A stretch of DNA of 64,000 nt from Phaeobacter sp. 11ANDIMAR09 (GTDB lineage Bacteria; Pseudomonadota; Alphaproteobacteria; Rhodobacterales; Rhodobacteraceae): assembly GCF_001294455.1 (NCBI RefSeq), contig NZ_LIKT01000011.1, positions 62,001 through 126,000 on the forward strand, in the 5' to 3' direction. The first letter of the stretch is position 1; each line of letters begins with the position of its first letter. This document shows, piece after piece, positions 9,663 to 50,256 of the stretch. The notes below the pieces were generated by a model. The model did no database searches. It worked only from the letters and a program-made list of their open reading frames with translations, and was not told where the DNA came from. The translations under genes and the position numbers were made by a program.

Positions 9663-10853
9663 ATGTCTGAGACCATCCAAAAACAAGCCGCTGAAGCCGA
9701 GGCCCAGGTCATGGCAGTCGCTGCAAATACCCTGCCCGAACCCGTTGCAGAAGTGCAGCCGCTGGAGACCGCCACGCCGGAGGTCAGTGCCGCCATCACC
9801 AGCCGCATTGGTGAGATCGACATGGGTGACAGCAATTCGATCATCCGCTTTGGCTCTGGTGCGCAGGCCGAACTGCAGACCATCAGCCAAGCGATGCTGA
9901 CAGATGTGCGCAACAAGGATGTCGGTCCAGCCGGTGACAGCCTGCGCGGCATCGTCACCACCATTCGCGGCTTTTCCGTCTCGGAACTTGACGTTCGGCG
10001 CAAACCCACCTTCTGGGAGCGCCTGCTGGGCCGGGCCGCGCCTTTTGCCAAATTCACCGCCCGGTTTGAAACCATCCAGAGCCAGATCGACAAGATCACT
10101 GATGATCTGCTGGGCCATGAGCACACCCTGCTGAAAGACATCAAATCGCTGGATTTGCTCTATGAAAAGACCCTGAACTTCTATGATGAGTTGGCGCTGT
10201 ATATCGCCGCCGGCGAGGCCAAACTGGCCCATCTGGACGCCAATGACATCCCGGCGCTGGACGCCGCCGTTGCCGCCGCCCCTGAGGCGGATCAGGTGAT
10301 CAAAGCACAGGAGCTGCGGGACCTGCGCGCTGCGCGCGACGATCTGGAGCGCCGGGTGCATGATCTCAAGCTTACCCGCCAGGTGACCATGCAGTCCCTG
10401 CCCTCGATCCGTTTGGTGCAGGAAAACGACAAGAGCCTGGTGACCAAGATTAACTCGACCCTGGTCAATACCGTGCCGCTCTGGGAGACGCAGCTGGCCC
10501 AGGCCGTAACCATCCAGCGCTCGGCCGAGGCCGCAAAGGCGGTGAGTGCTGCCAATGATCTCACCAATGAGCTGTTGACTTCGAATGCCGCCAATCTGCG
10601 TCAGAGCAACAAGATGATCCGGGAAGAAATGGAGCGCGGCGTCTTTGATATCGAGGCGGTAAAACAGGCCAATGCCGATTTGATCGGCACCATTCAGGAA
10701 AGCCTGCAGATCGCCGATGAAGGCAAGGCCCGCCGCGCCGCTGCCGAGGAAGAGCTGAAAAAGATGGAAGGCGAGCTGCGCGACACCCTGGCCTCGGCCA
10801 AGGCCCGCAAAGACGGGGTTGGCGACAATGCCGGCACCGCCGTTCCCGGCTGA
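9663..10853 (+). CDS. Toxic anion resistance protein, TelA/KlaA family
   Basis: A 396-residue soluble protein that matches the TelA family over its length: an N-terminal acidic region, then FWERLLGRAAPFAKFTARFE, KITDDLLGHEHTLLKDIKSLD, and the C-terminal helical part AAKAVSAANDLTNELLTSNA. It is predicted to be almost entirely alpha-helical with coiled coil. Plasmid TelA is linked to tellurite resistance; chromosomal members are linked to stress tolerance by unknown means. It lies directly between the XpaC-like gene and the DUF2927 gene, whose ATG follows the stop with no gap. Confidence 0.88.
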   Translation: MSETIQKQAAEAEAQVMAVAANTLPEPVAEVQPLETATPEVSAAITSRIGEIDMGDSNSIIRFGSGAQAELQTISQAMLTDVRNKDVGPAGDSLRGIVTTIRGFSVSELDVRRKPTFWERLLGRAAPFAKFTARFETIQSQIDKITDDLLGHEHTLLKDIKSLDLLYEKTLNFYDELALYIAAGEAKLAHLDANDIPALDAAVAAAPEADQVIKAQELRDLRAARDDLERRVHDLKLTRQVTMQSLPSIRLVQENDKSLVTKINSTLVNTVPLWETQLAQAVTIQRSAEAAKAVSAANDLTNELLTSNAANLRQSNKMIREEMERGVFDIEAVKQANADLIGTIQESLQIADEGKARRAAAEEELKKMEGELRDTLASAKARKDGVGDNAGTAVPG

Positions 10854-36126: not shown

Positions 36127-36606
36127 CTAGAAAATTGAAATTGAGGTTAAGAACTGTCCGTCGGCAGAGTTTTTGGTTTTAAAGGTCACCTGAACTAAGA
36201 GAGTGTCTCGCTCATCTGGTTGGTTTGATTGTGCGGCGCGTCGCCTGTGATGCAAGCGGCGCGCTACGAGCGTCTTTCGTTTGGTCCTTTCTCGGTGTTG
36301 TAGAATGGCTTTCTCCCGTCCGAAATAGAGGTCGGCCGGTGTGACGTTGTTCCGGCTTTCGTGGTGGCGATGATGATTGTAGTTATCGACGAAGGCTTCG
36401 TTTTGGGCTTCGAGATCACCTCGCAAGAAGTAGTTTTCCAACAAGATGCGGTTCTTCAAGGTTTGATGCCAACGTTCGGTTTTACCTTGTGCCTGAGGGT
36501 GATAGGGCGCGCCGCGAGACTGGACGCAGTGCGGTGAGCATCCACGTACCGTGATCTGGTGAACAGTATCACGTCTAAAATCGTCACTGAAATCTGGCTT
36601 CCCCAA
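36127..36606 (-). pseudogene. IS3-family transposase remnant with internal deletion
   Basis: A 159-codon frame that joins two distant pieces of an IS3 transposase. Its first 22 residues resemble the start of the OrfA helix-turn-helix protein (FSDDFRRDTVHQITVRG). After about eight odd residues it jumps to the end of the OrfB integrase core: RGAPYHPQAQGKTERWHQTL, then RILLENYFLRGDLEAQNEAF and VDNYNHHRHHES with the catalytic glutamate region. The rest of OrfA and the first two acidic catalytic residues are missing, so it cannot be active. The first codon is TTG, so even the start is doubtful. It directly adjoins the IS5-family element. Confidence 0.8.
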
Positions 36607-36640
36607 AAAGGACTCCTTGCCTCAAAACTAGGGTCAGGAC

Positions 36641-37045
36641 TCATAACCAGAATATGACTGTTGCGGCGAGAGCGATTGCTGACAGGAAGACCTTTGGGCA
36701 GCGGTCATAACGGGTTGAGACACGTCGCCAGTCTTTGAGCCTGCCGAACATCCTTTCGATGCGGTTGCGACGTTTGTATCGGCGCTTGTCGTACTTGATG
36801 GTCGTCTTGCGCGATTTGCGTCCGGGGATGCAGGGCTTTGTGCCCTTATCTATAAGGGTTTCGCGGAACCAATCGGCGTCATACCCTCGATCAGCGAGAA
36901 GCCATTCGGCTTTTGGCAGCCCGTTCATCAAGGCCGCAGCGCCAGTATAATCGCTCACTTGGCCTGCGGTAATGAACAGGCGGACTGGACGGCCGATGGT
37001 ATCTGTAATGGCGTGCAATTTGGTGTTCATCCCCCCTTTGGTCAA
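36641..37045 (-). CDS. IS5-family transposase, downstream frame (OrfB)
   Basis: Carries the second part of the DDE catalytic domain: LLADRGYDADWFRE with the second aspartate, and RNRIERMFGRLKDWRR with the glutamate in the IS5-family Y-(2)-R-(3)-E-(6)-K arrangement. Translation is expected from OrfA by a -1 shift at the A5G6 run (37064-37074 on the minus strand). After the shift the frame reads GRGRLIGLTKGGMNTK, joining the two halves smoothly. The internal ATG at 37045 is probably not a true start. Confidence 0.88.
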   Translation of the reverse strand: MTKGGMNTKLHAITDTIGRPVRLFITAGQVSDYTGAAALMNGLPKAEWLLADRGYDADWFRETLIDKGTKPCIPGRKSRKTTIKYDKRRYKRRNRIERMFGRLKDWRRVSTRYDRCPKVFLSAIALAATVIFWL

Positions 37046-37050
37046 GCCGA

Positions 37051-37398
37051 TCAGGCGTCCGCGCCCCCCTTTTTCAATCGCAGGCTGGAGGCCGTGCGAT
37101 GCGCTTTGAGGTATGTTGCATCAATTGAGATGGTTGTGTTGTCAGGGTCCTGTTCAGACAATCCCATCATGATCCGGGCAAACACGCCCATATCACTCCA
37201 ACGCTTCCAGCGATTATACAATGTCTTTGGTGGGCCATACTCGGCAGGTGCATCGCGCCACCTTAAACCATTGCGATTGATGAATATAATGCCACTTAGA
37301 ACGCGGCGATCGTCAACGCGAGCACGACCTCGACTCTTTGGAAAGAATGGCCGGAGACGCGCCATCTGCGCCTCCGTAAGCCAGTACAAGTTGCTCAT
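37051..37398 (-). CDS. IS5-family transposase, upstream frame (OrfA)
   Basis: The first 115 residues of the transposase from MSNLYWLTEAQMARLRPFF. It includes the DUF4096-type DNA-binding region (VDDRRVLSGIIFINRNGLRW) and the first catalytic aspartate in ISIDATYLKAH. It ends shortly after the A5G6 slippery run, whose -1 shift would continue into OrfB. The ATG at 37398, preceded by GGGGGG, is preferred over an in-frame start 11 codons earlier. Confidence 0.88.
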   Translation of the reverse strand: MSNLYWLTEAQMARLRPFFPKSRGRARVDDRRVLSGIIFINRNGLRWRDAPAEYGPPKTLYNRWKRWSDMGVFARIMMGLSEQDPDNTTISIDATYLKAHRTASSLRLKKGGADA

Positions 37399-37570
37399 AA
37401 CATCCCCCCGAAACTCGGGATCGTGAACCATAACAACGCGACAAGCTCAATCGGATAATGCGTCCTGACCCTAGGGAACAAAATGTCTAAAATAGTAGCG
37501 GCTATTCAGATCAATGGCTACGAAGAGGTAAAACTTGCCCTCAAACAGGGTTTGGCAGATGCAACCAGCC

Positions 37571-38215
37571 TCAACTATCACCTATTATTTTTGCGTCCAG
37601 CTGCGCTGAGTAATAGTAGGCGATTGCTTGGGCCCGGTTTCTGACAGAGAGCTTCTCGTAGATATTGGACAGGTGAAACTTGACCGTGTTTGTCGAAATC
37701 AGCAACTCCTTTGAAAGCTCACGATTTGACAACCCCTTTGACAGCGCCTCAAGGATGACCCGCTCTTTGCGGGACAGGCTATTAATTGGATCCTGCTGCA
37801 TCTTACGCACGTCGATGAAGGGAAACACCATCTTGCCCGCGGCCACGTCTGCGCAGGTTTCCAGCAACCCCTCGACCTCACCCGACCGGGAGGCAAACCC
37901 CGCAGCTCCTGCCTGCATTGCAAGACGTGGGATATCGCCAACCTCGTCACCGTAAACGACAAACCGAGGCTTGTTTTCCTGTTCCCGCAGAACTTCAATC
38001 AGCTTGGCGGCTCCAAGAACAGGCAGGTTCCAAGAGATCACGCAAACCTGCACCGGAACGCGCATCACCGCCCCCAGGAAGCCTTCGGCCGTTGAAGAGG
38101 TGGCCACCAGAGAGAATCGTGGATCCCGTTCAAAAATTTCTGACATCGCCGACAAGACCAAGGGGTTGTTATCGGCAAGCATGACATCAATCGATTGCGG
38201 CGAAGGTCCTGACAT
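37571..38215 (-). CDS. LuxR/NarL-type regulator with a degenerate receiver domain
   Basis: A 214-residue protein with a response-regulator fold followed by a LuxR-type HTH (about 145-205: LSRKERVILEALSKGLSNRE and TNTVKFHLSNIYEKLSVRNR). The receiver keeps Asp15-Asn16, but the phosphorylatable aspartate expected near residue 61 is replaced (VCVISWNLP has Ser-Trp) and the conserved lysine near 108 is also missing (GFASRS). It is therefore probably not controlled by phosphorylation. No histidine kinase is adjacent. It diverges from the serine-cycle operon across 218 bases, so it is the natural candidate to regulate that operon. Confidence 0.85.
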   Translation of the reverse strand: MSGPSPQSIDVMLADNNPLVLSAMSEIFERDPRFSLVATSSTAEGFLGAVMRVPVQVCVISWNLPVLGAAKLIEVLREQENKPRFVVYGDEVGDIPRLAMQAGAAGFASRSGEVEGLLETCADVAAGKMVFPFIDVRKMQQDPINSLSRKERVILEALSKGLSNRELSKELLISTNTVKFHLSNIYEKLSVRNRAQAIAYYYSAQLDAKIIGDS

Positions 38216-38433: not shown

Positions 38434-39675
38434 ATGACGTTCCAAATTTACCCCACCCTCGAAATTCCCGAGACGCTGGCGGCCGGGCCGGGGCCGGGCA
38501 ATACTGATGCCCGTGTTCTGCAGGCGTTTTCCAGCGCAGGTGTGGCGGATCACATGCAGGGTGACGTTCTACGCGGCATGGTCGAATGTAAGCTCATGCT
38601 GCGCGAAATCTGGGGCACCTCGAACACATATACCTTTGCGGTTGCCGGCACCGGCTGGAGCGCGCTGGACACCATGTTCTCTGCTGTCATGCCGGGTGAC
38701 AAGGTCGTTGCTTTCAACAATGGCACCTTTTCCGGCATCGACACGCTCACCCTCAGGATCAAGGCCGCAACTCCAGAAGAGCACGCCACCGCCCCCCTGA
38801 ACCCGCAGGCCGCCAGCGTCATCGTGATTGATGTCCCACATGGACAATCCGTAACCGGCGACATGGTCGAGGCCGCTCTGGCGGAACATAAGCCCAAATG
38901 GGCCTTCATGGCGCATTGGGAAACGGGATCAGGACGCATCAACGATCTGCGGGGCTTCTCCGATGCCTGTGAACGTCATGGCGCAATGGGGCTGACCGAT
39001 GCAGTCTCCTCGCTGGGTGTCGAAGATTTCCGCATCGACGACTACCCCGGTATCGCTGGCTGGGCATCCTGTCCGCAAAAAGGCCTGTGTTGTCTGCCTC
39101 TGACCTATGCGCCCGTCAGTTTTACCGACGCTTACATGAACAGCCTGAAGGCAACAGGCGCCTACAGCTATGTCCACAACCCAATCTTCGAGGCTCGCCA
39201 CTGGGGCATTGTGGATGGTGCGGATGTTGAACGCGGCACCTATCACCGGACCCATTCCGGCTATGCCGTTGCCGCTTTCCACGAGTCTCTTCGTCTCACG
39301 CTGGCAGAAGGGCTGGCAAAGCGGTCCGCCGCCTATCGCACCCACGAAAAGATCCTGCGTGACGCCGTAACTGCGATGGGCTGCGAGGTGACCTCGGACA
39401 TGCCTAGTCTGCTGGTGCTCAATCTGCCAGCAGATCTGGCAGGCCGCGAGATGGAGCTGGTGCAGAACTGCCGCGCCCGTGAGTTTGGCATCTGGCCGAC
39501 ACTTAGCGCCCCGGTTCAGGTCCGCATTGGCATCCTCAACCAGCTGAACCGCCATGCCATCAGCCAGATCATCCGACTGTTTTCCGAAGCCATCAGCGAA
39601 CTGGGGGGCACGGTCGATATGGAAGAGATCGAGGCCCTGCTCGAAAGCCGCTACGGCACATCGATCGCGGCTTGA
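38434..39675 (+). CDS. sgaA: Serine-glyoxylate aminotransferase (serine cycle)
   Basis: A 413-residue PLP enzyme of the class V aminotransferases that makes hydroxypyruvate and glycine from serine and glyoxylate. Lys216 in [10 protein letters not shown] is the PLP-binding lysine and Asp189 in LTDAVSSLG contacts the pyridine nitrogen. The substrate-loop [11 protein letters not shown] and the N-terminal [13 protein letters not shown] are typical of the glyoxylate-using branch. It is first in a six-gene serine-cycle operon, and its place next to mtkAB, hprA, ppc and mcl supports the methylotrophic role over photorespiratory-like alanine:glyoxylate transamination. Confidence 0.93.
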
Positions 39676-39703
39676 ACGCACTGCAAAAACGAAAGGATTG
39701 CAG

Positions 39704-40903
39704 ATGGATATTCATGAGTATCAGGCAAAAGAGGTTCTTTCGAATTTCGGCGTTGCCATACCATCTGGGGCGCTTGCCTACAGCCCGGAACAGGCCGCCT
39801 ATCGTGCGCGAGAGCTGGGCGGTGATCGGTGGATTGTCAAAGCTCAGGTTCATGCAGGCGGCCGCGGCAAAGCCGGTGGCGTAAAGCTGTGCAACAGTGA
39901 GAATGAGATTCATGAGGCCTGCGACAACCTGTTCGGACGCAAGCTGGTGACCCATCAGACCGGCCCGGAAGGCAAAGGCATCTATCGCGTCTATGTCGAA
40001 TCCGCCGTGCCGATTGACCGCGAGATTTATCTGGGCTTCGTGCTGGATCGCTCCAGCCAGCGTGTGATGATTGTAGCCTCCTCTGAGGGGGGTATGGAGA
40101 TCGAAGAGATTTCCGCAGAACGCCCCGACAGTATCGTACGTTCCATCGTGGAACCTGCGGTTGGCCTGCAGGAGTTTCAGGCCCGTGAAATCGCCTTTGA
40201 TCTGGGGCTGGAACCCCGGCTGGTGCAGCAGATGGTGCGGACGCTGCAGGGCTGTTACGCAGCCTTCAGCGAACTGGATGCAACCATGGTTGAAATCAAC
40301 CCGCTGGTCATCACCGGGGACGACCGAGTTCTGGCGCTGGATGCCAAGATGAGCTTTGACGACAACGCTCTGTTCCGTCACCCGCAGATCGCAGAGTTGC
40401 GTGACAAAAGCCAGGAAGACCCACGCGAAAGCCGTGCTGCCGACCGGGGGTTGTCCTATGTGGGGCTAGATGGAAACATCGGCTGTATCGTCAACGGTGC
40501 CGGTCTGGCAATGGCCACAATGGACACCATCAAACTGGCTGGTGGCGAACCTGCGAATTTCCTTGATATTGGCGGCGGAGCCTCACCGGAACGCGTGGCA
40601 AAGGCCTTTCGTCTGGTGTTGTCGGACAAGAATGTGCAGGCCGTACTGGTCAACATCTTCGCTGGCATCAACCGCTGTGACTGGGTTGCCGAAGGCGTTG
40701 TCCAGGCCCTGCGCGAACTGGAAATCGACATTCCGGTCATTGTGCGTCTGGCCGGGACCAATGTTGAGGAAGGCCAGAAAATTCTGGCCAAATCAGGTCT
40801 GCCGATCATTCGCGCCACAACTCTAATGGAAGCCGCAGAACGCGCTGTGGGCGCCTGGCAGCGCGACCTGACCCAAAATACCAAAGTGAGGGCTGTACAG
40901 TGA
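39704..40903 (+). CDS. mtkA: Malate-CoA ligase (malate thiokinase) beta subunit
   Basis: A 399-residue ATP-grasp subunit related to succinyl-CoA synthetase beta. It starts [20 protein letters not shown] and keeps the nucleotide-binding [20 protein letters not shown], the metal-binding [20 protein letters not shown] and the GIVNG-like [15 protein letters not shown]. By sequence alone it could be SucC, but with mtkB, ppc, hprA and mcl in one operon it is best called MtkA, which activates malate to malyl-CoA. It begins 28 bases after sgaA and overlaps mtkB by four bases (GTGA). Confidence 0.92.
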
Positions 40904-41790
40904 GCATTCTTCTTGACCGCGACTCCCGCGTTATCGTTCAGGGCATCACCGGACGCATGGCCCGGTTCCACACCAAGGACATGCTGGCATATGGCACCAA
41001 TGTCGTCGGCGGCGTAGTCCCTGGAAAGGGTGGCGAAACCGTAGAGGGCGTGCCTGTTTTTGATACCGTCAAGCAGGCTGTCGAAGCCACCGGGGCCGAT
41101 GCCAGCCTTGTTTTTGTGCCGCCGCCCTTTGCCGCAGATTCAATCATGGAGGCCGCAGATGCCGGTATCAGGTATTGTGTCTGCATCACGGATGGTATCC
41201 CCGCGCAGGACATGATCCGCGTCAAACGCTACATGTACCGCTACCCCAAGGACAAGCGTATGGTGCTGACCGGGCCGAACTGTGCCGGAACTATCAGCCC
41301 CGGCAAGGCCTTGCTGGGGATCATGCCCGGCCATATCTACCTGCCTGGCAATGTCGGCATCATTGGTCGGTCAGGCACGCTGGGCTATGAGGCCGCAGCA
41401 CAGCTGAAAGAGCGCGGCATTGGTGTTTCCACCAGTGTCGGCATCGGAGGGGATCCGATCAACGGCTCATCCTTCCGTGATGTTCTCGAACGTTTCGAGA
41501 ATGATGACGACACCGAAGTGATCGCCATGATTGGCGAAATTGGGGGTCCTCAGGAAGCTGAGGCGGCAGAGTTCATCCGCGATCACATCACCAAACCGGT
41601 GATTGCCTATGTGGCTGGTCTGACCGCCCCCAAGGGCCGGACCATGGGCCATGCCGGCGCAATCATTTCAGCATTTGGTGAAAGCGCCTCCGAAAAAGTT
41701 GAAATCCTGTCAGCCGCCGGTGTGACCGTGGCCGAAAATCCCGCAGTCATCGGTGAAACGATTGCACGGGTTATGGGAAAGGCTGCGTGA
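40900..41790 (+). CDS. mtkB: Malate-CoA ligase alpha subunit
   Basis: A 296-residue CoA-binding subunit. The N-terminal CoA fold [20 protein letters not shown] and the phosphohistidine loop [11 protein letters not shown] (His251) are intact, as is the [16 protein letters not shown] stretch. It starts at GTG 40900, overlapping mtkA's stop by four bases, and its own stop overlaps the ATG of hprA (TGATG). With MtkA it converts malate, ATP and CoA to malyl-CoA, which Mcl then cleaves. Confidence 0.93.
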
Positions 41791-42761
41791 TGGTCAAACC
41801 TTCCGTTTTTGTCACCCGTCGCTGGCCTGCTGCAGTCGAAGCTCAGCTGGCTGAAACCTACAATACCGTGCTCAATACCGGGGACAAACCGATGTCCCCG
41901 GCCGAGATACGCGAAGCGCTGAAACGCTATGACGCGGTGCTGCCCACGGTCACGGACAGCCTCAGCTCCGAGGCGCTGGATGTACCCGCAGCTCAGACCA
42001 AGATCCTTGCCAATTATGGTGTGGGATATAGCCATATTTGCGAGCCATCCGCTCGCAATCTTGGCATGACCGTGACCAACACACCCGACGTCCTGTCCGA
42101 ATGCACAGCGGATCTGGCCATGACACTGCTCTTGATGGCAGCCCGCCGTGCTGGCGAAGGGGAGCGTGAGCTGCGCGCGGGAGACTGGTCTGGCTGGCGT
42201 CCGACCCATCTAGTGGGCACAAAGGTCAGCTGTAAAACGCTAGGTATCATCGGCTTTGGCCGCATCGGTCAGGAAATGGCACGGCGCGCGCATCACGGCT
42301 TTGGCATGAAGATTCTGGTCCAAAACCGCAGCCGGATTTCGCCGGATGTTCTGCATCAATACAATGCAACGCAGGTGGAAACGGTTGATGACCTGTTGCC
42401 GCACTGTGATTTTGTTTCGCTGCACTGTCCAGGCGGTGCCGCCAACCGGCATCTGATCAATTCTCGCCGCTTCGATCTGATGAAACCGGACGCCTTTCTG
42501 ATCAATACCGCACGTGGTGAGATTGTGGATGAGCACGCCCTAATTCAGGCGCTAATGTTTGATGTCATCGGTGGAGCCGCTCTGGACGTCTTTGATGGCG
42601 AACCCCGGATCAGCCCGGATCTGATGCACAGCGACAACCTTGTGATGTTGCCACATCTAGGCAGCGCCACCCGTGAATCCCGTGAGGCGATGGGGTTTCG
42701 TGTTCTGGATAACCTGAGTGACTTTTTTGCAGGCCGCGCCCCGCGGGATCAGGTGATCTGA
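41790..42761 (+). CDS. hprA: Hydroxypyruvate/glyoxylate reductase (D-isomer 2-hydroxyacid dehydrogenase)
   Basis: A 323-residue NAD(P)H-dependent reductase that turns hydroxypyruvate into D-glycerate. The Rossmann motif GFGRIGQ lies at about 153-159. The catalytic Arg (NTARGEIVDE), Glu and His (LPHLGSATRE) are present. The ATG at 41790 overlaps the mtkB stop; a GTG one codon upstream is also possible. In Methylobacterium the same enzyme is encoded beside sga; here it sits between mtkB and ppc. Its product needs glycerate 2-kinase, whose gene in this cluster is broken. Confidence 0.9.
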   Translation: MVKPSVFVTRRWPAAVEAQLAETYNTVLNTGDKPMSPAEIREALKRYDAVLPTVTDSLSSEALDVPAAQTKILANYGVGYSHICEPSARNLGMTVTNTPDVLSECTADLAMTLLLMAARRAGEGERELRAGDWSGWRPTHLVGTKVSCKTLGIIGFGRIGQEMARRAHHGFGMKILVQNRSRISPDVLHQYNATQVETVDDLLPHCDFVSLHCPGGAANRHLINSRRFDLMKPDAFLINTARGEIVDEHALIQALMFDVIGGAALDVFDGEPRISPDLMHSDNLVMLPHLGSATRESREAMGFRVLDNLSDFFAGRAPRDQVI

Positions 42762-45391
42762 TGCAAGCGCTGGCCCGGTCCCTTCAGTCCCCTTCCGACC
42801 CATCAGGCTATGCCGAAGGGTTGCGTGCAGAACTGCGCGCCCTATGGCGGAATATCCTGCTGAAGCGGGCGCCTCATGTGGAGACATGGGCTGAGGCCAG
42901 GCCATTGCCGCCGATCCCGACGGGGCCCGAGGCAACCCCCTATCTGCAGGCCCTGTCGATCTGGTTCCAGCTGCTGCGCATCGTTGACGAAAACGCCGAG
43001 GTGCGGAACCGCCGCCTGAGTGAAACCCAAAACGGTGCCGAAGCCGTCGAAGGTGGGTTTGCCAAGGTTCTGTCTGATCTGTCCCTATCGGTCACTCAGA
43101 CAGAAGACCTGACCGCACCGCTATGCGTTGGCCCGACTCTGACCGCACATCCGACCGAGGCCAAGCGGGTGACCGTGCTAGAAATTCACCGCCGGATTTA
43201 TCGCAATCTGGTTGGTCTTGAATCCCAGCGCTGGACTCCGACCGAACGCGTAGAACTGTTAAATGCTCTGGAAGGTGAAATCGATCTGTTGTGGCTGACG
43301 GGGGAGCTGCGCCTGTCACGCCCCAGCCTGAAGGACGAGATCGAATGGGGACTGCAGTTCTTTCGCGATGCGATCTTTGACGCTGTTCCTCAGGTCATGG
43401 AACGTTTTGATCAGGCTTGTCTGCATGTGCTTGGGCAGGTTTTGACCAAAACTCCCGACATTCGTTTTCACAGCTGGATCGGGGGCGACCGGGACGGCAA
43501 TCCGAATGTTACCACCGAAATGACTGCGCAGGCCTTGAAGCGCGGGCGCGAAACAGTGTTGGATCTGTATCAACAGGCGCTTGTTCAGGCTGCCGGCAGG
43601 TTGAGCATCAGTGCCCTCATACTGCCGCTGCCTGAAACAGACCGGGCGCGCCTGCATGGCATCATTGACGCGGCACCTGATGCGTGTCGGAACCAGAATG
43701 AACCCTTCCGGCAGGCTTTGAATGCCATAGGTCATAGGCTGAGCAATGACGGTTATGATCACATTGCGCAATTCCTGGGTGATCTGGACAGCCTTGATGC
43801 CGCTTTATGTGCGGTCAACGCAGATCTTCTGGCCCGTCGACATATCCGCCCCCTCCGCCGAGCCGCTGCGGTCTTTGGCTTTCGCTGCACGACACTGGAC
43901 ATTCGCCAGAACTCGACCGTCACAACCGTGGTCTTGGCCGAGATCTGGTCGCAATCCGGCCAGGCGCCGGAATATGGCACCCCGGAATGGTCCGGGCGTT
44001 TGCGTCGGGAATTGGTGGATCAGAACCTGCCCTATCAAGAGCGTGAGACGCTCAGCGATCAGGCCCAGGAATTGCTTGACCTTTTGACCCTGGTTCATAG
44101 CGTTCGATCTGGGCCAGATCCACGCGCTGTCGGGCCATTTATCCTGTCGATGACGCGCTCAGCCGATGATATTCTTGGTGTCTACCTCTTGGCCCGCTAC
44201 GCCGGGCTTGGGGCTGAGACACTTGATTTCTCTGTGGTTCCCCTCTTTGAGACAATTGCCGATCTGCGCAATGCCCCCGCGATCCTGCTGGCTGTACTAG
44301 ATGTTCCCCTGGCCCGTCGCAGCCTGAAGACCGAGGGCAATGTGATCGAGGTGATGCTGGGTTATTCAGACAGCGGCAAGGATGGGGGCTATTTCTGCTC
44401 GACTTGGGAGTTGGAGCGCGCGCAACGGCGGATCATGACCGCGCTGGCTTCGCAGGGTTTCAAGCCCCGGTTTTTCCATGGCAGCGGGGGCTCGGTCAGC
44501 CGGGGCGGTGCCCCCACCGGGCGCGCCATCGCCGCCCAACCCAGTGGCACAATTGCCGGGCAGCTGCGGGTTACGGAACAGGGCGAGGTTGTGTCGGCCA
44601 AATATGCCAATCGTGGCACCGCCGCCGCGCATCTGGAACTGCTCCTCTCTAGCACTCTGCGCCATACTGCCAGCCCGTGCAAAACCCCTGCCTGTCCCGA
44701 GTTTGATGATGCGCTGGATGCCCTGTCAGAGCTGTCGCAGACGGCCTATGTCTCCCTTTTGCAGAGGCCTGAATTTCTCGAATACTTCCAGCAGGCCAGC
44801 CCAGTGGAAGAGCTGGCTCGGCTGAAAATCGGCTCTCGCCCGACCCGCCGTTTTGGCGCCGCCAGTCTGGAGGATCTGCGGGCTATCCCTTGGGTCTTTG
44901 CCTGGTCACAGAACCGCCACCTGATCACCGGCTGGTATGGGTTTGGCGCTGCGATGGCCAGCTTTCGCAAGTTCCGAGGCACGCATGGTGATGATGTCTT
45001 GCAGGGGATGTTTCAGCATTCGCACCTGTTCCGCCTGGCTGTCGATGAGATGGAAAAGTCGCTGTATCAGGCCGATATGGGCATCGCAGCGCAATACAGT
45101 GAACTGGTGGATGACAGTGAAATCTGCCGCAGCGTGTCGCTGAATATTCAGGCGGAATACGACAGCGCATGCAAGGCGGTGCAGTTTCTGACCGGCGGTC
45201 AACCCATAGGGCATCGCTTCCCCCGCCTGTGCGAGCGTTTTGATCGCAAACGCGATGAACTGGCCCGCATTCATGCCCTGCAGATCGACCTGCTACGACA
45301 GGCAAGACAGGATCCGCAGGTCGCAACTGTGCCCGTTCCCCTGCTGCAATCCATGAACGCCATTTCCGCTGGCCTTGGCTGGACCGGTTAA
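42761..45391 (+). CDS. ppc: Phosphoenolpyruvate carboxylase
   Basis: An 876-residue PEP carboxylase that fixes bicarbonate onto PEP to give oxaloacetate. The catalytic motifs are complete: LTAHPTEAKRV (His130), the active-site GGDRDGNPNVT, FHGSGGSVSRGGAPTGRAI and the EQGEVVSAKYANRGTAAAHL region. The chain ends GLGWTG, a variation on the usual C-terminal NTG. It is the CO2-entry step of the serine cycle. The start overlaps the hprA stop by one base (TGATG), so expression is coupled. Confidence 0.95.
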   Translation: MQALARSLQSPSDPSGYAEGLRAELRALWRNILLKRAPHVETWAEARPLPPIPTGPEATPYLQALSIWFQLLRIVDENAEVRNRRLSETQNGAEAVEGGFAKVLSDLSLSVTQTEDLTAPLCVGPTLTAHPTEAKRVTVLEIHRRIYRNLVGLESQRWTPTERVELLNALEGEIDLLWLTGELRLSRPSLKDEIEWGLQFFRDAIFDAVPQVMERFDQACLHVLGQVLTKTPDIRFHSWIGGDRDGNPNVTTEMTAQALKRGRETVLDLYQQALVQAAGRLSISALILPLPETDRARLHGIIDAAPDACRNQNEPFRQALNAIGHRLSNDGYDHIAQFLGDLDSLDAALCAVNADLLARRHIRPLRRAAAVFGFRCTTLDIRQNSTVTTVVLAEIWSQSGQAPEYGTPEWSGRLRRELVDQNLPYQERETLSDQAQELLDLLTLVHSVRSGPDPRAVGPFILSMTRSADDILGVYLLARYAGLGAETLDFSVVPLFETIADLRNAPAILLAVLDVPLARRSLKTEGNVIEVMLGYSDSGKDGGYFCSTWELERAQRRIMTALASQGFKPRFFHGSGGSVSRGGAPTGRAIAAQPSGTIAGQLRVTEQGEVVSAKYANRGTAAAHLELLLSSTLRHTASPCKTPACPEFDDALDALSELSQTAYVSLLQRPEFLEYFQQASPVEELARLKIGSRPTRRFGAASLEDLRAIPWVFAWSQNRHLITGWYGFGAAMASFRKFRGTHGDDVLQGMFQHSHLFRLAVDEMEKSLYQADMGIAAQYSELVDDSEICRSVSLNIQAEYDSACKAVQFLTGGQPIGHRFPRLCERFDRKRDELARIHALQIDLLRQARQDPQVATVPVPLLQSMNAISAGLGWTG

Positions 45392-45456
45392 CCCTTTTTC
45401 AGCCTTGTGAACTTTTCCCTCTTTTCCCGAACCTGTAAGACGAAGGAGCCAACCCC

Positions 45457-46434
45457 ATGAGTTTTCACCCCATTGACCAAGCCCCAGCCCGGCTGAACCG
45501 CAGCGAATTGGCGGTGCCCGGCAGCCAGCCCGGAATGTTTGAAAAGGCCGCGCAATCGGATGTGGATGTCATTTTCCTTGATCTCGAAGATGCGGTCGCG
45601 CCTGATGAAAAGGAACAGGCGCGCAAGAACATCATCGAAGCCCTGAATGACATCGACTGGGGCAGCAAAACCATGTCGGTGCGGATCAACGGGCTGGACA
45701 CTCATTACATGTATCGTGACGTGGTGGATGTGGTCGAACAGGCTGGCAAACGGCTGGACTTGATCATGATCCCCAAGGTTGGCACGGCTGCGGATGTCTA
45801 TGCCGTCGACATGATGGTGACCCAGATCGAAGATGCCAAAGGCTATGACAAACGTATCGGCTTTGAGCATATCGTTGAAACCGCACTTGGCATGCAGAAT
45901 GTCAGTGAAATCGCAGCGGCCTCAAAGCGCAATGAAAGCCTGCATTTTGGTGTGGCCGACTATGCCGCCTCTACGCGTGCGCGCACGACCATCATTGGCG
46001 GGGTAAATCCGGACTATTCGGTGCTGACGGACGCTGACGCAGAGGGTGGGCGGATGACCCATTGGGGCGATATGTGGCACTATGCCCTTGCCCGGATGGT
46101 GGTCGCAGCACGCGCCAACGGGCTACGTCCCATTGATGGGCCCTTTGGTGATTTTCAGGATCCCGAAGGTTACAAAGCTGCCACAAAACGGGCTGCGGTT
46201 CTGGGGTGCGAAGGAAAATGGGCGATCCATCCCAGCCAGATTGCACTGGCAAACGAAGTCATGTCGCCGGGGGATGCAGAAGTCACCAAGGCTCAACGCA
46301 TTCTTGAGGCAATGGCCGAGGCCGAAGCGGCAGGAAAAGGCGCGGTTTCGCTGGACGGACGCCTGATCGATTATGCTTCGATCCGACAAGCCGAAGTCAT
46401 GGTCGAAAAAGCGCGTCAGATCGCAGCGGCCTGA
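45457..46434 (+). CDS. mcl: Malyl-CoA lyase
   Basis: A 325-residue HpcH/HpaI-family lyase that splits malyl-CoA into acetyl-CoA and glyoxylate, the step that regenerates glyoxylate. Conserved features include RSELAVPGSQPGMFEKA, the metal-binding DVIFLDLEDAVAPDEK, the substrate-contacting GFEHIVETALGMQN and GVADYAASTRAR. AAGGAGCC precedes the ATG. It is the last intact gene of the serine-cycle operon. Related enzymes also act on beta-methylmalyl-CoA in the ethylmalonyl-CoA pathway, so dual use is possible. Confidence 0.94.
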   Translation: MSFHPIDQAPARLNRSELAVPGSQPGMFEKAAQSDVDVIFLDLEDAVAPDEKEQARKNIIEALNDIDWGSKTMSVRINGLDTHYMYRDVVDVVEQAGKRLDLIMIPKVGTAADVYAVDMMVTQIEDAKGYDKRIGFEHIVETALGMQNVSEIAAASKRNESLHFGVADYAASTRARTTIIGGVNPDYSVLTDADAEGGRMTHWGDMWHYALARMVVAARANGLRPIDGPFGDFQDPEGYKAATKRAAVLGCEGKWAIHPSQIALANEVMSPGDAEVTKAQRILEAMAEAEAAGKGAVSLDGRLIDYASIRQAEVMVEKARQIAAA

Positions 46435-46439
46435 ATCCG

Positions 46440-46790
46440 GTGACGGAGCAAGCGCTGGACATAAAACGCACCGATGCAAAGGCCATCTTTGCGGAAGCCG
46501 TTGCAGCTGCAGATCCTGCGCTTGCTCTGCGTAATAAACTGATCACTTGCCCCTTCTCCCCCCCCGCAAAAAAGCAGGGCGCAGTATTGTGATTGCGGTT
46601 GGGAAAGCTGCCCCCGCGATGTTGCGAGAAGCCTTGCGGCACATCCGTGGGGGCCACACAGCCATAGCCGTTACCCAATCCGACATCCGATCCCGAACGA
46701 AGACGGGCTGCAGGCGGGGCGCCAGATTATAGAGCTGTTGTCTGAAGCAAGAGAACAGGATCAGGTCATTGCTCTGTTCGCTCCGGGGAT
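46440..46790 (+). pseudogene. gck: Remnant of glycerate 2-kinase (MOFRL family), frameshifted and 3'-truncated
   Basis: From a GTG at 46440, five bases after the mcl stop, the frame reads KRTDAKAIFAEAVAAADPAL, the usual opening of MOFRL-type glycerate kinases, then hits TGA at 46590. One extra C in the C7 run near 46560 would restore a frame reading GRSIVIAVGKAAPAM, a core family motif. A third frame from 46684 continues HPIPNEDGLQAGRQIIELLS and EAREQDQVIAL, where about 17 residues are missing. Similarity stops where SGGGSAL should follow, and the next bases belong to the convergent glxA gene. It cannot make an active enzyme. Confidence 0.8.
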
Positions 46791-46821
46791 CGGGACAGTC
46801 GTTTCGTTGCCAAGCCATCAA

Positions 46822-47826
46822 TCAAGATGGCTGGCAATCCTCAAATTCTACACGGAAACTGTCTTGCGCTTTTCGTTCGTCTCTTGGTGTCGCGCCAAAG
46901 GCTTCACGGTAATGTCGGCGGAATGTGCCAGACGAAGAATACCCGACCATGATTGCCACTTGTGCAATAGAATCATTGGTAAAAAGAACAAGTTGGCGAG
47001 CCTGTTTCATGCGCATCTTGCGATAATACTGCAAAGGGCTTTGGCCAGTTGCCTCTTTGAAGCTGCGTTCAAGATTTCTGGTGGAAATGCCAATCGCTCG
47101 GGCGACTTTGGTCATTGATACCGGGTTTTCGATGTTCTCGGCAAAGTAGCGGATCGCGTGATCAACCTGTTTTGGCAAAAGGTCCTGGCTTTTGGCCGTG
47201 GCCAATGCGGGCTGTTTTTGTGGAAAGGTGGGGCTACGCACAAATGGATGTTGAAACCAACAAGCAGCTTCCGCCATAACTTCTGGGCCCAGATGCTCTC
47301 CAACTAAGGAAAGCATATGATCGAAGGCTGCCAACGCGCCAGAAATGCTTGTAAAATCATCAGATTGACAGATGACGCTGCTTTCTACTGGCACATATGG
47401 AAATTCTGCCTGAAAGGCCGCTGTGTAACACCAGTGAACGGACATAGGCTGCGCCTTTTGCAGGCCAGTCCGCACCAAAGGAAATACACCTCCACTGATC
47501 GCACCTAGGCGCGTTCCCTGTCGCAGAATCCGCTGAAGGGCCGCATGAGACCGAGCCGGTTTTAGAAACCGAGCCTTGGGGCCAGAAGCGAAAAAAAGGT
47601 GATCCAAAGCGCCCACGTCTGACAGAGATGCGTCCGGCATGATCGGAACACCAGCAGAAGAAGTCACCGGCTCGTCCTTTTCAGAGACAATAAGCCACCG
47701 AAATGCCTCTCTTCCGGTGATTTCATTTGCCGCGCGTAAGGGTTCTACAAAGGAGGACAGTGCAGCCATGGGAAAGCCAGGAAAGATCAAGAGGCCCAAT
47801 GACATAGGGGGTTTTTCTTCTCTCAT
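46822..47826 (-). CDS. GlxA-family AraC-type transcriptional regulator
   Basis: A 334-residue regulator with an N-terminal DJ-1/PfpI-like domain (about 10-185) and two C-terminal AraC HTH motifs (about 215-320: VSMTKVARAIGISTRNLERS and SIAQVAIMVGYSSSGTFRRH). The catalytic cysteine of DJ-1 enzymes is replaced in AISGGVFPL, as expected for a ligand-sensing domain. Relatives such as GbdR and ArgR2-like proteins respond to betaines and other amines. It follows tdm by 57 bases on the same strand, so it is probably the last gene of the TMAO operon. AAGGAG before ATG 47826 supports this start. Confidence 0.88.
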   Translation of the reverse strand: MREEKPPMSLGLLIFPGFPMAALSSFVEPLRAANEITGREAFRWLIVSEKDEPVTSSAGVPIMPDASLSDVGALDHLFFASGPKARFLKPARSHAALQRILRQGTRLGAISGGVFPLVRTGLQKAQPMSVHWCYTAAFQAEFPYVPVESSVICQSDDFTSISGALAAFDHMLSLVGEHLGPEVMAEAACWFQHPFVRSPTFPQKQPALATAKSQDLLPKQVDHAIRYFAENIENPVSMTKVARAIGISTRNLERSFKEATGQSPLQYYRKMRMKQARQLVLFTNDSIAQVAIMVGYSSSGTFRRHYREAFGATPRDERKAQDSFRVEFEDCQPS

Positions 47827-47883: not shown

Positions 47884-50256
47884 CTACTCGTAATTGCCTT
47901 TCACCCGCTCTTTTCGTGGATCAAAATGCGGAAAGGGCACGATCTTTGCACGCAGCCGCTTTTGCTGCCCGTCGAGCTGGCCGATTTCAAGTTCCGTTCC
48001 GATCTCCGCATGCGTAGTAGCGACCCGGCCCAGAGCGATGACCTTCCCCAGGATGGGGGATTTCATCGCACTGGTGATTTCGCCCACCTGCGCGCGCCCA
48101 ATGCGGATGCAATCGCCAGGCGCCGGAATTGTGCCGCCTTCGACCTCAAAGCCCACGAGTTTGCGGTGCGGATGCGCCTTGCGCTCTTCAATGGCAGCAC
48201 GGCCGATAAAGTCATCTTCCTTGGACTTCAGCGGCACCGTGAAGCCGATGCCCGCTTCAAAGGGGTCGGTCTGGTCGTCAAACTCTGAGCCGGAAAAGAT
48301 CAGCCCGCCTTCGATACGCAGCATATCCAGCGCTTCCAGCCCCAGCGGGGTGATGCCGAACTCCTGACCCTCTTCCCAGACCCTGTCAAAGATCTCCACC
48401 GCGTCCTTGGGATGGCAAAAGATCTCATAGCCTAGCTCACCAGAGTAGCCGGTGCGCGAGATCACCACCGAGGTGCCGGAAACGCCCCCCACTCGCGCCA
48501 CGGCCAGCCGGAACCAGGGCAGTTCACCAATGGTGGGCTGCTGAGGTGGGGTCCATAAGATACGGCTGAGGATCTCGCGGCTATGGCGACCCTGCACCGC
48601 GATATTATGCAGCTGATCCGTCGAGTTGCGCACCCAGACATTGAGGCCGAGTTTGCGCGCCTGCTCCTGCAGCCAAAGACCACTGGTGTCATTGCCGCCG
48701 ATCCAGCGGAAATTGGTCTCACCCAGCCGGTAGACGGTACCATCGTCAATCATGCCGCCGTGTTCATAGCACATGGCGGTATAGACCACCTGTCCCACAC
48801 TCAGCTTTTTCATGTTGCGGGTCACACAGAGCTGCATCAGCTCTTCGGCATCGGGGCCTGTCACCTCATATTTGCGCAGCGGGCTCAGATCCATCACCGC
48901 CACCTTGTCGCGGCAGGCCCAGTATTCGGCGATGGCACCGTGGTTGGTCATTGTATTGGGCAGCCAATAGCCATTGTATTCGATGAAATCGCGGGTATGG
49001 CGCGCAAAACACTCATGAAACGCGGTTTTCTTAGTTTCTTCCACATCCGCCTCCGCAGATTTTCTGTAGCCAATGGAGCGGGAGAAATCTTCCCCCGCCT
49101 TGTAGGTGCGGACTTGTATGTCCGTTGGGTTCCAGCCATTGGCCGGGTCGATGTCGCAGGGACAGGCGGTGCTGACGCAGACCAGATCAGTGAGCGCGCG
49201 CAACAGCACATAGTCGCCGGGACGGGACCAGGGATCGTCCATGCCGATCGAATTGGTCTCGTCCAGCAGGGTGTTGAAAAAGAAGTTGATGGCCGGCCAG
49301 CCGCCGCGCGGCTTGATGTCGTATTGTGCCAGATCTTGGTTGATATTGTCCGAGCAGTTGATGTGGCCGGGATAGCCGAGGTCCTCATAGTAGCGGGCGG
49401 TACAGGCAAGCCCGAAGGTATCGTGCCGCCCGCAGGTATCCTGCACGATCTCGACCAGGGGCTCCTGATCCACCGACCAGTATTTGGAAAATACCCCCGG
49501 CGTCGGATAGAGGTTGCCCATCAGACTGCGGGTCGTGGTCGGATCGATTTCCCGCTCCACCCCTTTGTCCAGGGCGCGCAGGCTGAAGGCCTGAAAATCC
49601 GAGCATTCGCGGCCCTTAACGTCTAGAATCTGGATGTACTCGCCCGCCTTAACCTCATAGCTTTGGGCATTGCCCGGCAAAATATTGTAGTCCTGCAAGG
49701 GGTCCGACAGCGGCTCCGGGGCAATGATATCCGGCTTCTCCCGCCCGCGTGCGGCGCGTTTCACATAGAGAATGATGTCTGTTGGCGGGTTCTGCTCTTC
49801 GGGACGCATCGGCGCGCCCGGGGCCGCCACAATCAAAAGGCCATCGACCTCAGCGGAGAAGGTCACCATGTCGCCGGCCTGTGAGCCTTCTTCAAAGGCA
49901 CGGATGGCATCCCCTTGACCGATGTCGAACCCAGCCTGTTCCAGCGCCCGCAATACCTTGCGGCCAGAGCGGGAGCCATTGGCCAGGGTGGCGATGATCC
50001 CATCAGGCCGCCCCTGCCCTGCAGCGCCCAGATATCCGGCGCGCGAGCTGCGGTCCGGGGCAAAACAGACCACCTCTGCCTTCTGCATGCCGTCGCGGTC
50101 CAAAAGGGTGATCTGATCCCCCTTTGCAATGGCGATAGCGCGGGAGCCTGCGCCCGGAACCGGGTGGCGCTCTACCCCGTGGGGCAGGATGGGCAGGCCA
50201 GGGGCCAGCACGCCGCGCCGCTCAAAGGGAGCTTCAAAGATCGGTTGCACGTTCAT
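47884..50256 (-). CDS. tdm: Trimethylamine N-oxide demethylase
   Basis: A 790-residue two-part enzyme that converts TMAO to dimethylamine and formaldehyde. Residues about 20-400 are DUF1989-type modules, with candidate zinc-binding cysteines Cys275 (DTCGRHD), Cys365 and Cys367 (TACPCD). Residues about 420-785 form a GcvT/aminomethyltransferase-like folate-binding domain with VAVMDLSPLRKYEVTGPDAE and GYSGELGYEIF, which can take formaldehyde to 5,10-methylene-THF. This domain order and length are those of Tdm rather than DmdA or GcvT, and the adjacent TMAO transporter supports the call. It starts 21 bases after tmoW. Confidence 0.92.
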   Translation of the reverse strand: MNVQPIFEAPFERRGVLAPGLPILPHGVERHPVPGAGSRAIAIAKGDQITLLDRDGMQKAEVVCFAPDRSSRAGYLGAAGQGRPDGIIATLANGSRSGRKVLRALEQAGFDIGQGDAIRAFEEGSQAGDMVTFSAEVDGLLIVAAPGAPMRPEEQNPPTDIILYVKRAARGREKPDIIAPEPLSDPLQDYNILPGNAQSYEVKAGEYIQILDVKGRECSDFQAFSLRALDKGVEREIDPTTTRSLMGNLYPTPGVFSKYWSVDQEPLVEIVQDTCGRHDTFGLACTARYYEDLGYPGHINCSDNINQDLAQYDIKPRGGWPAINFFFNTLLDETNSIGMDDPWSRPGDYVLLRALTDLVCVSTACPCDIDPANGWNPTDIQVRTYKAGEDFSRSIGYRKSAEADVEETKKTAFHECFARHTRDFIEYNGYWLPNTMTNHGAIAEYWACRDKVAVMDLSPLRKYEVTGPDAEELMQLCVTRNMKKLSVGQVVYTAMCYEHGGMIDDGTVYRLGETNFRWIGGNDTSGLWLQEQARKLGLNVWVRNSTDQLHNIAVQGRHSREILSRILWTPPQQPTIGELPWFRLAVARVGGVSGTSVVISRTGYSGELGYEIFCHPKDAVEIFDRVWEEGQEFGITPLGLEALDMLRIEGGLIFSGSEFDDQTDPFEAGIGFTVPLKSKEDDFIGRAAIEERKAHPHRKLVGFEVEGGTIPAPGDCIRIGRAQVGEITSAMKSPILGKVIALGRVATTHAEIGTELEIGQLDGQQKRLRAKIVPFPHFDPRKERVKGNYE

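Follow-up and report, generated by a model that had tools for sequence, protein, structure and literature searches.

The window analysed here, a stretch of 64,000 nucleotides from Phaeobacter sp. 11ANDIMAR09, carries a serine-cycle operon whose last gene, mcl, is followed by what appears to be a broken glycerate 2-kinase gene (gck). The locus therefore raises the question of whether glycerate can still be returned to 2-phosphoglycerate in this organism and, if so, by which enzyme. The operon was assigned as follows:

38434-46434, forward strand: serine-cycle operon sga, mtkA, mtkB, hpr, ppc, mcl, assigned from the annotation of Ruegeria conchae M340 together with gene order and identities

The short gene names follow the first-pass annotation, a reading of the window made from its letters alone, and the gene order in R. 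conchae M340: sga denotes the aminotransferase, mtkA and mtkB the beta and alpha-type subunits of malate-CoA ligase, hpr a protein of glycerate dehydrogenase type, ppc PEP carboxylase, and mcl a CoA ester lyase. The products of mtkA and mtkB pass a curated NCBIfam cut-off; the NCBIfam matches of the other four products all stay below the cut-offs. All six genes are open frames with full-length matches to R. conchae M340 and R. atlantica. In the R. conchae M340 operon, ppc and mcl flank a glyA gene. This gene is absent from the window operon, where ppc and mcl are separated by 65 bases (45392-45456), and the genus mate G002 (locus L172) likewise has no glyA near mcl. A full glyA (SHMT), 85% identical to the R. 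conchae operon gene, is located on contig C27, and formate-THF ligase, SHMT, and crotonyl-CoA reductase (ethylmalonyl-CoA route) are all present in the genome. Upstream of the operon, 36127-37431 contains transposase fragments assigned to the IS5 type and, with matches under the cut-off, to the IS481/IS3 type. They adjoin a regulator gene (37571-38215) that is 90% identical to a response regulator occupying the equivalent position in R. conchae M340.

The open frame of mcl closes at 46434. Five bases past its stop, at 46440, lies a GTG start. The kinase-like sequence that begins there is arranged as follows:

46440-46557, forward strand: gck remnant piece 1, in frame A, matching the intact kinase from residue 1 to about residue 39
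46558-46565, forward strand: a run of eight C's (C8) marking the approximate site of the frame change; the surrounding interval has a net two extra bases relative to both intact Ruegeria orthologues
46566-46680, forward strand: gck remnant piece 2, in frame B, with the GKAAPAM motif and its conserved lysine, ending at a 43-base deletion
46681-46812, forward strand: gck remnant piece 3, in frame C, over the PF13660 cut-off, with the SGGGSAL motif unrecognisable and the 3' two thirds of the gene missing

Pieces 2 and 3 occupy the two forward frames that piece 1 does not, and about 124 codons' worth of gck sequence is left across the three. In a frame-tolerant protein-to-DNA alignment, 46440-46812 aligns with residues 1-138 of the 427-residue R. 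conchae TW15 kinase, 74 of 123 aligned residues being identical; with the R. atlantica CECT 4292 kinase, 74 of 114 aligned residues are identical. When the first 145 residues of the TW15 kinase are used as the query, the remnant scores 306. By comparison, 150 dinucleotide shuffles of the remnant score 30 on average and 44 at most, other stretches of the window, 78 in all from both strands at 39 places, reach at most 49, and the opposite strand of the remnant scores 29. The excess over the shuffles upholds the earlier proposal that three pieces in three frames make up the N-terminal part of a glycerate kinase. Profile and database searches speak for the individual pieces. Piece 3 alone (46681-46821) matches PF13660 with 29.7 bits against a cut-off of 23, over profile positions 89-133 of 234 and thus only part of the domain, and the same stretch is recovered by a whole-genome search (E 1.7e-5). 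Neither piece 1 nor piece 2, each taken alone, matches any Pfam family up to an E of 1; tblastn with intact mcl-linked kinases as queries finds pieces 2 and 3, at E 9e-10 in one search and 3e-22 in another, both against small local databases. Translated searching of 46440-46820 has thus found glycerate kinase similarity by tblastn, PF13660, and frame-tolerant alignment. PF05161, the MOFRL domain, is absent from the remnant; genome-wide, it is matched on contig C5 alone.

Judged by its sequence, 46440-46812 is a pseudogene, the 5' third of a class II glycerate 2-kinase gene; a MOFRL-type (class II) gck has decayed directly after mcl at the end of the serine-cycle operon, as had been supposed. 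The remnant contains no single open reading frame of about 400 residues, being spread over three frames, with its first frame closed by a TGA after 50 codons and its 3' two thirds gone. Its product would be at most a 50-residue peptide and no kinase.

The lesions were sized as anchored distances relative to the orthologues of R. conchae TW15 and R. atlantica, both of which gave the same values. The first interval measures 109 bases in the window and 107 in both Ruegeria orthologues, a net gain of two bases that probably sits at or near the C8 run. The first-pass annotation had invoked a one-base loss in a C7 run, which yields the identical frame but the wrong length, for the run has eight C's and the change is a gain of two. 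The second interval measures 93 bases in the window versus 136 in the Ruegeria orthologues, giving a deletion of 43 bases, or 14 codons plus one base; an internal deletion had been correctly noticed, but its size had been put at about 17 codons. At the 3' side, residues 139-427 of the kinase are lost, the MOFRL domain included. The SGGGSAL motif is unreadable past about 46776, and the final 12 aligned codons (36 bases) are doubtful and may be either decayed gene or foreign sequence. If the frame changes were assembly or sequencing errors and the gene were in fact intact, a first lesion at or near a C8 run, a typical site of such errors, would be consistent with this. However, the 43-base deletion, the 289 residues missing on the 3' side, and the changed SGGGSAL motif go beyond what one homopolymer error can produce, making an error of this kind extremely unlikely.

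Beyond the remnant, three further features are relevant:

46807-46837, no strand assigned: hairpin spanning the end of the remnant and the stop codon of the convergent regulator gene
46822-47826, reverse strand: AraC-type regulator with a DJ-1/PfpI domain, convergent with the operon, whose stop bounds the remnant
47884-50256, reverse strand: trimethylamine N-oxide demethylase (NF053776, 1200.7 bits, cut-off 1100)

The sequence from 46822 onward is the 3' end of the regulator gene, and the remnant is cut close to that end, in agreement with the 3' truncation first described. The neighbour had been named glxA; a convergent gene is indeed present, but its identity is that of an AraC-type regulator with a DJ-1/PfpI domain, located beside the demethylase gene. 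The downstream region also encodes a type III glutamate-ammonia ligase, and the demethylase and the ligase would fit a methylated-amine island. It was probably through a rearrangement that gck lost its 3' end, because a related regulator and demethylase pair is found at another place in the genus mate G006: a regulator that is 77% identical, with a trimethylamine N-oxide demethylase neighbour that is 94% identical, sits on the contig that carries mcl there, about 119 kb away from it. The remnant's end might have been retained as a terminator or spacer between the operon and the convergent regulator gene. The hairpin covers the remnant end together with the regulator stop, and the 71-base stretch 46790-46860, which contains a second small hairpin, has a folding z of -4.2, with only 1 of 200 shuffles folding as well. 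Yet the hairpin at 46807-46837 shows no consensus terminator and takes in only the last few bases of the remnant, and retention for such a function is very unlikely.

The rest of the genome was searched for gck and garK. This search yielded one intact class II kinase, a protein of 420 residues encoded on contig C5, and no class I match. In a single frame, the C5 kinase matches PF13660 with 225.8 bits and PF05161 with 121.7 bits, and it matches the solved relatives 1x3l and 2b8n, the latter a putative glycerate kinase, with 213 and 200.5 bits, respectively. When it is aligned to 2b8n, its Lys50 and Arg324 fall within the conserved GKAA and GGRNQE motifs; the corresponding residues of the Thermotoga enzyme, a lysine and an arginine, are regarded as catalytic. 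Against NF040791 and NF041176, the two curated NCBIfam equivalog models for glycerate 2-kinase, which look archaeal by their short names, the C5 kinase stays far below the cut-offs, with 197.8 bits (cut-off 670) and 193.3 bits (cut-off 550). A class I glycerate kinase (GarK/GlxK) was considered as a substitute and rejected, as there is no PF02595 match in the genome.

Each of the 12 genus genomes compared, the window's included, carries one full kinase, and a serine-type mcl is present in only 3 of the 12. A sulfatase gene lies directly upstream of the kinase in the window's genome (L114 6319-9463, on contig C5) and in 11 of 11 genus mates, and on the strength of that shared neighbour the C5 kinase is regarded as the resident locus. 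The conserved sulfatase neighbour suggests another primary role for the C5 kinase; it is possible that the two genes belong to a pathway in which a sulfate ester is converted to glycerate.

The relationship between the remnant and the intact kinases was examined in a tree of 84 kinases, where the remnant has residues in just 25% of the columns. In this tree it clusters, at 100/100, with the mcl-linked kinases of R. conchae TW15 and R. atlantica CECT 4292; its closer join to R. conchae, at 100/71, is not firm. The 12 C5-type kinases of the genus form one clade (100/88), whose sister group (100/99) consists of three mcl-linked kinases, one of them from Leisingera aquimarina, and the enclosing clade (99/96) contains all 22 linked kinases and one further unlinked kinase. 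Because of this position within the linked clade, the resident C5 enzyme can be assigned to the linked-kinase lineage. The idea that the remnant is a recent duplicate of the C5 gene was rejected, given that the C5 query finds no match at the remnant and that the tree places the remnant with the linked Ruegeria copies.

The remnant had been called the missing enzyme of the cycle, with the alternatives that another kinase substitutes or that the cycle is open. The description as the missing enzyme is not supported, given the intact kinase of the same clade on contig C5, and substitution by that class II kinase is the likely answer. An open cycle would mean that glycerate is not returned to 2-phosphoglycerate and that the operon serves glyoxylate/C2 handling only or is itself decaying. 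Its support within this genome is limited to the dead linked gck and the glyA missing from the operon, and whole operons of this type do decay, the related plasmid operon of Parasedimentitalea marina being broken in several genes. Against this stand the intact class II kinase of the linked clade and the fact that sga, mtkA, mtkB, hpr, ppc, and mcl have all remained open and full-length; an open cycle is therefore very unlikely, and the C5 kinase would carry the serine-cycle flux.

How often a linked kinase is lost was addressed by a census of 83 genomes with a serine-type mcl, comprising 77 named loci, five relatives (G002, G006, G012, G013, and G021), and the window's own genome. The named loci derive from the best 80 of at least 586 relatives of Mcl, after L068, L096, and L099, with 14, 193, and 1 bases after mcl, were left out; a kinase start is visible in the 193 bases of L096. 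R. conchae M340 stands outside the census. An intact kinase directly follows mcl in 22 of the 83 genomes, and a remnant does so in 3 (the window's, HTCC2083, and a Planktomarina MAG). One genome (L072) is cut by a contig end and was left unclassed, and in the other 57 there is no kinase in the stretch after mcl, which covers 1.6 kb (0.9 kb in L069 and 1.5 kb in G012). The genus mates G002 and G006 have neither a linked kinase nor a remnant in the 1.6 kb after mcl. Among the 57, another kinase with an open frame of at least 367 residues is found in 52; two have only pieces at contig ends, one MAG has two pieces in different frames, and two, metagenome bins of 2.6 and 1.6 Mb, yielded no kinase. 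All three remnant genomes have another full kinase, as do 8 of the 22 genomes with an intact linked copy, the remaining 14 being without one. A remnant is thus present in 3 of 11 genomes with a further kinase versus 0 of 14 without (one-sided exact p 0.07, for genomes that are not independent).

The best explanation of these observations, and one that we consider very probable, is that the operon gck is a dead gene, made superfluous by the resident C5 kinase acting in trans. The resident kinase, a member of the linked clade, would make the operon copy redundant; selection on the operon gck would lapse, and the gene would decay. The C5 enzyme would then phosphorylate glycerate to 2-phosphoglycerate in trans, as proposed for the gck of Paracoccus aminophilus. 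Loss of glyA from the operon would reflect the same redundancy, which its absence fits because a full glyA is present on contig C27. As the cause of decay, redundancy would be read from a correlation only, and a counterpoint is that 8 genomes keep an intact linked copy despite having another kinase. With an intact kinase of this kind retained at another place in the genome, the loss of the operon gck was probably harmless and fairly ordinary.

The history of the operon itself was approached through a tree built from five proteins of the operon at 38 loci. The window operon falls in a clade of six at 100/100, together with four Ruegeria operons and one alphaproteobacterial MAG, and the R. conchae M340 operon lies next to that clade (98.9/100). 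Outside the window's clade, the operons of the genus mates G002 and G006 pair with each other (100/100). The window aminotransferase is 86-91% identical to the four Ruegeria copies and 72-73% identical to those of G002 and G006. Among plasmid records, the nearest match is an R. conchae replicon of 787 kb, with 81.4% identity at the DNA level. The simplest reading would be that the operon was acquired from outside the genus and that duplicates were then lost, acquisition from outside being drawn from one five-gene protein tree; alternatively, it is possible that the window operon is old and was displaced. The reading that best accommodates both would be that the operon either came in or was displaced, and that those of its genes that were redundant decayed. 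The more specific scenario, in which a Ruegeria-type operon entered a genus with a resident kinase in its sulfatase locus, the resident took over, and gck and glyA were the first genes lost, is plausible but tentative, falling somewhat short of probable.

Two observations were made on related operons. On the P. marina plasmid pW43C (L157 8017-17257), sga, mtkA, mtkB, hpr, and ppc are each in several pieces; mcl is intact, and no kinase match follows it. A gck remnant there was rejected, its frame-tolerant score of 41 being at chance level. Six Ruegeria contigs (L033, L036, L037, L039, L040, and L042) end 49-92 bases before mcl, which suggests a repeat at that position.

These results close an apparent gap in a methylotrophy pathway, in that the right kind of kinase is in the genome, far from the operon, and they add one more decaying linked gck to a small Rhodobacterales set. 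If take-over by a resident enzyme with early loss of the duplicating genes is a general pattern, the genes already present on the host chromosome would allow the make-up of such Rhodobacterales operons to be predicted. In R. conchae TW15 and R. atlantica CECT 4292, gck likewise lies directly after mcl and belongs to the same clade as the remnant; these Ruegeria genes are intact, encoding 427 and 425 residues, whereas the window's copy is broken. The same post-mcl gene is cut or frameshifted in R. conchae M340, in Rhodobacteraceae bacterium HTCC2083, and in the Planktomarina MAG, but the lesions differ, consisting of one frameshifting deletion in M340 and of 3' truncations in the other two, both of which retain another kinase, as the window's genome does. 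The M340 linked copy is identical to that of TW15 at 414 of 423 residues, and the only part of it entered in the M340 record is a MOFRL piece of 444 bases. In HTCC2083 (L084, about 9972-10400), the linked-kinase match ends at residue 126; by eye, the gene is cut just before SGGGSAL, at nearly the same place as in the window. A literature search found no work joining the serine cycle, Ruegeria, and glycerate kinase. One earlier study describes class II glycerate kinases as members of the serine cycle in methylotrophs, where they form 2-phosphoglycerate (PMC2063504). An unlinked gck is itself not new, having been published for Paracoccus aminophilus JCM 7686; there the serine-cycle cluster lacks gck, and an unlinked gck on the chromid pAMI5, judged to be horizontally acquired, has a transcript that rises 5.9-fold in methylotrophic growth (PMC4543880). 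The window's genome resembles P. aminophilus in having a cluster without a functional gck and a gck elsewhere in the genome; unlike that of P. aminophilus, its unlinked kinase is common to all 12 genus genomes compared, and its role in the cycle is a predicted one.
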